A stretch of DNA of 64,000 nucleotides from Candidatus Gastranaerophilales bacterium (GTDB lineage Bacteria > Cyanobacteriota > Vampirovibrionia > Gastranaerophilales > Gastranaerophilaceae). The stretch is taken from positions 1-64,000 of the forward strand of contig CALURG010000079.1 in the NCBI GenBank assembly GCA_944323115.1, read 5' to 3'. Below the pieces are notes generated by a model, which saw only the letters and a program-made list of their open reading frames with translations, had not been told where the DNA came from and made no database searches. Each line of letters opens with the position of its first letter. The first letter of the stretch is position 1. The position numbers and the translations under genes are program-made. Shown here in pieces: positions 5,210 to 58,140 of the stretch.

Positions 5210-5998
5210 ATGCTAAGATCACTAACAACAGCAGCAACAGGTATGATAGCACAACAAAACAATTTGGATGTTGTGGCAAACAACGTTGCAAACGTAAACA
5301 CAACGGGTTTTAAAAAATCCAGAGCGGAATTTCAGGACTTGCTTTCTACAGCAATAAGAACACCCGGTGCAATGATTACACAGGGTACATATCAGCCTGT
5401 CGGTGTTGAAATCGGTCTCGGTGTAAAAACATCCGCAACAAGAAAAATTATGACAGGCGGTGTAATGCAAAGTACAGGAAATAAATATGATATGGCTATT
5501 GAAGGCGAAGGATTCTTCCAGATAGTCAGACCTGACGGTACACTTGCATACACAAGAGACGGCTCCTTTGCTCCTGATGCAGTCGGCCAGCTTTGTACTT
5601 CTGACGGATATCTCCTTCAGCCGCAGATAACCATCCCGCAAAATACTACAGAGGTAAACATTACCCCTGACGGAAACATTTCCGTAAAAGTCGGAAACGA
5701 TACAACCCAGACAATTGTAGGACAGATTCAGCTTGTCAGATTCCAAAACCCAGCCGGTTTGCTTTCTATAGGCCACAACCTGTACGTTGAAACACCGGCA
5801 TCAGGCACACCGATACCGGGTACACCTGACCAAGACGGCGTAGGCTCTATTCAGCAGGCATTTTTGGAAGGTTCAAACGTACAAATCGTTGACGAAATGA
5901 TAAACCTGATTAAGGCTGAAAGAGCTTTTGAAACAAACTCAAAAATCATCACAGCCGCTTCGGATATCCTCAGAACAACCAATCAGATAGTGACATAA
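5210..5998 (+). CDS. flgG: Flagellar distal rod protein FlgG
   Basis: The distal rod subunit, 262 aa as in model species. It opens MLRSLTTAATGMIAQQ, carries the signature NNVANVNTTGFKKSR, IEGEGFFQI and TRDGSF, and ends in the conserved MINLIKAERAFETNSKII helix. A strong Shine-Dalgarno (GGGAGAG) precedes the ATG. It is exported by the flagellar type III system, so it has no Sec signal. Confidence 0.96.
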   Translation: MLRSLTTAATGMIAQQNNLDVVANNVANVNTTGFKKSRAEFQDLLSTAIRTPGAMITQGTYQPVGVEIGLGVKTSATRKIMTGGVMQSTGNKYDMAIEGEGFFQIVRPDGTLAYTRDGSFAPDAVGQLCTSDGYLLQPQITIPQNTTEVNITPDGNISVKVGNDTTQTIVGQIQLVRFQNPAGLLSIGHNLYVETPASGTPIPGTPDQDGVGSIQQAFLEGSNVQIVDEMINLIKAERAFETNSKIITAASDILRTTNQIVT

Positions 5999-57560: not shown

Positions 57561-57814
57561 TTATCTTCTCCTGTTTAAATAATTTTGATCCACACAATGT
57601 TTATCGGCTTATACTTTAATGAACTTTAGAGTTTTTCCAAAAATAAGTAAGTTTTTTTTACATAAATTTACAATTCTGCATTTTCAATCTTTTGTATAGC
57701 ACCTATAAAAATAACTCCACAAAACTCACCCCTTCTTTGCGGAAGTGAAAAATTTGAGCCGGCTATGACAACACCGGATTGGTTAAGCAAAAATATGATA
57801 TACAAACTTAAAAA

Positions 57815-57888
57815 CGTGTCCGGGGGGAGTCGAACCCCCGACCAACAGCTTCGGAGACTGATACTCTATCCAACTGAGCTACGGACAC
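57815..57888 (-). tRNA. tRNA-Arg, anticodon CCG
   Basis: On the minus strand a complete cloverleaf of 74 bases: acceptor GTGTCCG/CGGACAC, D arm GCTC-AGTTGGATA-GAGT, anticodon loop CTCCGAA (U33, anticodon CCG), T arm GGGGG-TTCGACT-CCCCC and discriminator G. The first anticodon-stem pair (27-43) is a T-T mismatch. CCA is not encoded and TTTT follows at once. Upstream of it lies a tandem repeat that copies its first 13 bases. Confidence 0.95.
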
Positions 57889-58140
57889 AAATAATATTCA
57901 ACTGTCACAATCTTACCATAGCTCAGTTGGATAAAATATCTAAATTTTGTTGTACTTTAACTCCGTTAAAGATACAACGGGTGAGCTACGGACACAAATA
58001 ATATTCAACTATCACAATCATACCATAGCTCAGTTGGATAAAATATCTAAATTTTGTTGTACTTTAACTCCGTTAAAGATACAACGGGTGAGCTACGGAC
58101 ACAAATAATATTCAACTGTCACAATCTTACCATAGCTCAG
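57876..58140. repeat. 107-bp tandem repeat (2.5 copies) at the 5' end of tRNA-Arg
   Basis: The period is exactly 107 bases (GAGCTACGGACAC recurs at 57876, 57983 and 58090). Each unit carries, on the minus strand, a TATTAT box and the first 13 bases of the tRNA, plus a TATCCAACTGAGCTA segment that is the exact antisense of the tRNA D arm (57919-57933 and 58026-58040), and a 13-bp hairpin GTTGTA-CTTTAAC/GTTAAAG-TACAAC (57949-57978). Copies differ by only a few bases. Confidence 0.9.

Follow-up and report, generated by a model that had tools for sequence, protein, structure and literature searches.

Tandem units of tRNA segments and a conserved hairpin beside tRNA genes of Gastranaerophilales

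The array upstream of tRNA-Arg(CCG)

The window, a stretch of 64,000 nucleotides from contig CALURG010000079.1 of a Candidatus Gastranaerophilales bacterium (GCA_944323115.1), contains an intact tRNA-Arg(CCG) gene on the reverse strand (57814–57889), identified by ARAGORN and by Rfam RF00005 (62.9 bits). On its 5' side and on the same strand lies a tandem array with a period of 107 bp and 2.5 copies (57875–58140), which covers the first 15 bases of the tRNA. TRF and repeat comparison both recovered it, bearing out a first-pass annotation, made from the sequence alone, that had described a 107-bp repeat with sense and antisense pieces of the tRNA at this position. The copies show 97% matches overall (TRF) and the two full ones are 98% identical, in agreement with the recent duplication proposed there.

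In the reading direction of the tRNA, a unit has tRNA nucleotides 1–14 followed by a hairpin and, after a spacer, by 15 nt antisense to the D arm; about 30 nt then lead to the next tRNA copy. The outer copies of nucleotides 1–14 (GTGTCCGTAGCTCA) were located in the sequence on the reverse strand at 57982–57995 in the first unit and at 58089–58102 in the second; the 5' end of the tRNA is thus present in the unit as annotated, with a length of 14 bases and not 13. The antisense copies are exact over 15 bases, as had been stated, and were found by inverted-repeat comparison on the forward strand at 57919–57933 in the proximal unit (also read directly in the sequence) and at 58026–58040 in the second unit. 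An 8-base remnant (58133–58140, forward strand) is visible in the sequence of the distal partial unit, where the TRF array ends. When extended beyond the exact 15 bases, the inverted match in the array reaches 25 nt at 88%. The hairpin annotated for each unit, GTTGTA-T-CTTTAAC-GGA-GTTAAAG-TACAAC (13 bp, one bulged base, GNA loop), was confirmed by pattern search at 57949–57978 and 58056–58085 on the reverse strand, the first copy also by covariation.

Folding predicts a three-way junction (57907–57996, reverse strand) in which the outer tRNA copy is paired with the antisense segment and the hairpin is enclosed. The predicted fold of the 107-bp unit is much more stable than those of its shuffles, with z values of −4.1 as RNA and −4.9 as DNA. 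In an Rfam scan the gathering score was reached by the tRNA alone, and no known structured RNA family was found for the array. The TATTAT sequence that had been taken for a multiplied promoter is unlikely to be a −10 box, because it ends only 2 nt before the mature 5' end of the tRNA, which is too close, and is not conserved in relatives. A −35/−10-like TTTAGA-N17-TACAAT spanning the antisense segment fits several same-genus units, but neither the window nor other families.

Recurrence at the same tRNA and at other tRNA genes

In the following, G000 is this genome (a 93% complete draft), other G labels are related genomes and L labels are loci. When 59 related genomes were searched, tRNA-Arg(CCG) proved to carry the array in many species of this genus as well as in a second family; the repeat period is 103–108 bp, copies number up to about four, and the array often reaches a contig end. 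The antisense and outer copies in these relatives match the sequence of their own tRNA with few differences. Empty and filled sites occur next to the same HIT gene, L098 having tRNA-Arg(CCG) and the HIT gene with no element, and intact tRNA-Arg(CCG) genes without an array are also present in the same genus at L100, L101 and L104. Loss of the repeat in close relatives, one of the two observations that the first-pass annotation had set together against its own regulatory proposal, was therefore found, and since several same-genus species have an intact tRNA-Arg(CCG) without the array, the latter is dispensable. Remnants of the element on the tRNA-proximal side were identified at L099 and L102 (same genus) and at L116 (another family). 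At L083 (about 5640–5780, 5' of tRNA-Arg(ACG)) a hairpin element is followed by a partial tRNA-Arg (nucleotides 1–48) and then by the full tRNA-Arg(ACG); this is another type of insertion into that gene.

For a genome-wide test, the flanks of detected tRNAs were searched for copies of the same tRNA, with mismatched tRNA–flank pairs as control. Elements were observed 5' and/or 3' of 14 of the 25 tRNAs in this genome and of 16 of the 30 in G040, which belongs to another family, against near zero in mismatched pairs; a 5' sense score of at least 26 was reached by 9 of 25 matched pairs and by a fraction of 0.000 of the mismatched ones. G046, from another family of the order, had two 3' copies only, and in the outgroup G058, from another order, no elements were detected at tRNA flanks. 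The arrangement in the window is not a product of chance, since many species have it at this tRNA and it recurs at numerous others. The tRNAs with elements in this genome include those for Gly, Asp, His, Leu, Val and Met, which disagrees with the suggested dosage role peculiar to a rare Arg codon.

The elements carry a partial tRNA copy, as a rule together with part of the D or T arm in reverse complement, and unit sizes range from about 83 to 250 bp. Other arrays in the same genome are found at Gly-TCC (93 bp), His (133 bp) and Leu-CAA (125 bp). Compared with the 5' form, the 3' form is mirrored: it runs from the tRNA 3' end through a flank with a terminator, an antisense T arm and hairpins to an outer copy of the tRNA 3' end; the His 3' unit includes a duplicated terminator. 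Outer 5' copies end at nucleotides 11–20 (D loop) and outer 3' copies begin at nucleotide 56 or beyond (T loop), and both forms consequently stop at the loops that make the tRNA elbow. At L086, two halves of an older tRNA-Asp enclose a complete one, which has promoter-like and terminator-like sequences. Many tRNA genes on contigs C71, C38, C7, C75 and C87 of G000 lie no more than a few hundred bases from a contig end; the likely reason is that the arrays break short-read assembly.

The conserved hairpin and the antisense segment

The hairpin has 13 pairs, a three-base loop and one bulged base, which may be any base while the bulge itself is kept. With one mismatch allowed, its pattern was found in 17 of 118 related genomes and the reversed-pattern control in zero. 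In a separate pattern search with the loop left free, all true matches had a GNA loop. In the GTDB genomes, the hairpin was identified in 31 contigs, 30 of which are from Gastranaerophilales MAGs or from an uncultured bacterial relative in the same genus. The remaining contig is labelled Lutibacter; it shares its sample series with a Gastranaerophilales MAG, and its binning may be wrong. Wherever the contig includes a tRNA (Arg-CCG, Arg-ACG, Asp-GTC or Lys-TTT), the hairpin lies just 5' of it, and no case of the window hairpin was seen away from tRNAs or contig ends. L090 (JAQVGD010000095.1, labelled Lutibacter, perhaps through misbinning) has two tRNAs, Lys-TTT and Arg-CCT, with Gastranaerophilales-type elements. 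IMG/VR contigs gave no match to the hairpin. A phage or plasmid origin was rejected, as the array had no viral or plasmid match and the phage matches listed were to tRNA-Arg genes.

Among 19 distinct forms of the hairpin, 23 cells had both sides changed and 1 was unpaired (covariation 0.277 versus 0.098 when shuffled); the collecting pattern preselects purine or pyrimidine at some positions, and the free positions 5:26 and 12:20 alone exchange A-T, T-A and C-G. Intermediates with G-T are almost absent from the arms, and this scarcity hints that the hairpin acts as DNA. The same genome contains 12 copies (control 0) of a second palindrome, CCTCTC-hairpin-TCGGCAGAGT. Its sites are beside the 3' ends of His, Met and Leu tRNAs, beside the tmRNA, in the loops of other palindromes and within the D loop of the outer tRNA-Leu(TAG) copy, where the element has no antisense segment. 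Palindromes inserting into hairpin loops would be the simplest common theme. In the tRNA-distal array unit of L012 (G001:C2), a palindromic repeat with the ends CTAATCTAGTGTCG and TCTCGGACA lies inside the hairpin loop; similar sequence is present in L020 and L103, near other tRNA-Arg genes. The 3'-type palindromic element of several tRNAs is also present at the 3' end of the tmRNA gene in L236 (G000:C12).

The first-pass annotation had also proposed that RNA started upstream would be able to pair with the D arm of the tRNA, and folding predicts the same: joint folds of unit and tRNA gained 5–23 kcal/mol over separate folds at 26 of 26 5' loci, shuffled leaders giving a mean of about 1–4. Regulation by antisense pairing would thus be thermodynamically possible. 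The antisense segment extends further than the outer copy and takes in the greater part of the D arm or T arm. In G000 and G003 it matches the D loop of the tRNA to which it belongs; some further species have a change in it that leaves a G-U pair. Antisense positions 15–23 are conserved though they have no partner inside the unit, which suggests a relation to the intact tRNA. Where the antisense could follow either the outer copy (as at L078) or the intact tRNA, 2 cases were cis, 11 trans and 1 neither, with the positions mostly at the module junction and the filter favouring trans.

Possible origins and relation to known systems

The window array may be one of a family of small palindromic mobile elements whose insertion sites are Gastranaerophilales tRNA genes, a reading to which we give an even chance. 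A small non-coding palindrome would enter the tRNA gene from its 5' side at the D loop or from its 3' side at the T loop and duplicate the gene end, that is, the tRNA terminus and its flank with the promoter or terminator region, so that an intact tRNA would survive beside a broken outer copy. Such elements would owe their spread to mobility, a putative enzyme acting in trans would recognise a cruciform or folded single-stranded DNA, and the antisense arm would either close the hairpin or match the target. Tandem arrays would grow later by recombination between duplicates. Insertion by mobile palindromes is favoured because the hairpin is tRNA-adjacent wherever its contig includes a tRNA, and because of its clade restriction and covariation, the empty and filled sites at one locus and the palindromic modules nested in other palindromes' loops, all of which are directly observed, as are the anatomy of the units, their recurrence at many tRNAs and the mirror 3' form. 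The same reading is weakened by the confinement of the hairpin to tRNAs or contig ends, by the conservation of antisense positions 15–23 without a partner in the unit and by the failure to find a Y1 transposase, an autonomous copy or a viral or plasmid match to the array. PF01797 had 0 matches in G000 (93% complete draft) and none in the array carriers G005–G007, G009, G010, G013–G015, G017 and G040; a Y1/REP transposase was rejected as the driver, since this family does not co-occur with the arrays. Moreover, a long duplication of gene end and flank is unusual for a transposase, and this also counts against mobility.

As the chief alternative, the elements could act on RNA, with D-arm antisense upstream and T-arm antisense downstream inactivating tRNA made from read-in or read-through transcripts, so that folding would be limited to RNA that starts at the proximal promoter and stops at the proximal terminator; the outer sense copy could neutralise the antisense and thereby form a switch. 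Such boundary control would agree with the predicted joint-fold gain at all 26 loci, with an antisense that extends past the outer copy over most of the D or T arm and tracks the D-loop base in G000 and G003 (elsewhere sometimes leaving a G-U pair), and with the duplicated terminator of the 3' His unit. We nevertheless consider it unlikely, given close relatives with intact tRNAs and no elements, the tRNA-Leu(TAG) element that has no antisense copy and the decay to remnants at L099, L102 and L116. Doubtful, too, is an origin with no mobility at all, in which recurrent replication template switching at tRNA arms would give duplication–inversion–duplication, followed by amplification and homogenisation. 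The sense–antisense–sense order and the duplicated flank are consistent with it, and arm-to-arm conversion can yield strict Watson–Crick covariation, but the same hairpin sequence, GNA loop and unrepaired bulge recur at four tRNA isotypes in several genera, and hairpin and elements are restricted to one clade. Integration is usually recognised by partial copies of a tRNA (PMC9897764), and the 3' form, with nucleotides 59–76, has a typical block; the units might accordingly be read as attL/attR pairs of ordinary integrative elements after cargo loss. This is very improbable in view of a D-loop 5' form that is mirror-symmetric to the 3' form, units of 83–250 bp that are tandemly repeated with conserved hairpins, and no integrase or cargo seen between copies.

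Genes for tRNAs are among the most constrained small genes, yet more than half of those examined in two genomes are accompanied by broken copies of themselves, nested around hairpins and lying on either side of the tRNA, across several families of one order of non-photosynthetic gut cyanobacteria. If insertion by mobile palindromes is true, the elements would form a new class of tRNA-anchored palindrome with its own putative enzyme. They would help to account for gut-bacterial assemblies that break at tRNA genes, and they would offer a natural test of whether antisense next to a tRNA gene alters tRNA output. In the papers searched we found no report of such elements for Gastranaerophilales, nor of anything like them. 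Among palindromic repeats and tRNA-anchored elements, their mirrored, antisense-bearing and genome-wide form appears to be a new variant. More tentatively, they might represent an undescribed mobile palindrome guided to the D or T arm by antisense complementarity, or else a control of tRNA transcript boundaries by flanking antisense arms that inactivate mis-started or read-through tRNA.

Integrative elements that target tRNAs leave a partial tRNA at attR (PMC9897764). The direct repeat of the tRNA terminus and the restored intact tRNA are shared with the Gastranaerophilales elements; integrase and cargo are not, the units of 83–250 bp being too short for genes, with assembly gaps in some arrays. 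The elements described here also differ in being tiny, in occurring at the 5' end as well and in having an antisense arm. Integron attC arrays are likewise tandem imperfect palindromes with an extrahelical base, but the Gastranaerophilales units are anchored to tRNAs, and no GTTRRRY core was found by eye in the array units. REP/BIME sequences with their Y1 transposase RAYT resemble the elements in their short imperfect hairpins and tandem groups. The stable hairpin with an unpaired base typical of this IS200/IS605-type system is present in the array, whereas a cognate Y1 HUH transposase is absent from this genome and many carriers, and REPs, unlike these units, are not known to be made of tRNA pieces. 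Rickettsia palindromic elements are short palindromes of about 100–150 bp that are scattered among the genes of a single bacterial group; they sit inside genes, while the Gastranaerophilales elements occupy tRNA ends and come with a duplicated gene end. The closest analogue is probably that of E. coli tyrT, where 178-bp repeats (rtT RNA) stand in tandem beside the tRNA, each with part of the tRNA terminus. To our knowledge, the tyrT repeats are confined to one locus and to the 3' side, with no antisense arm or conserved hairpin. Both systems have tandem repeats by a tRNA that include a piece of its terminus, but the Gastranaerophilales elements occur at many tRNAs and on both sides of them.
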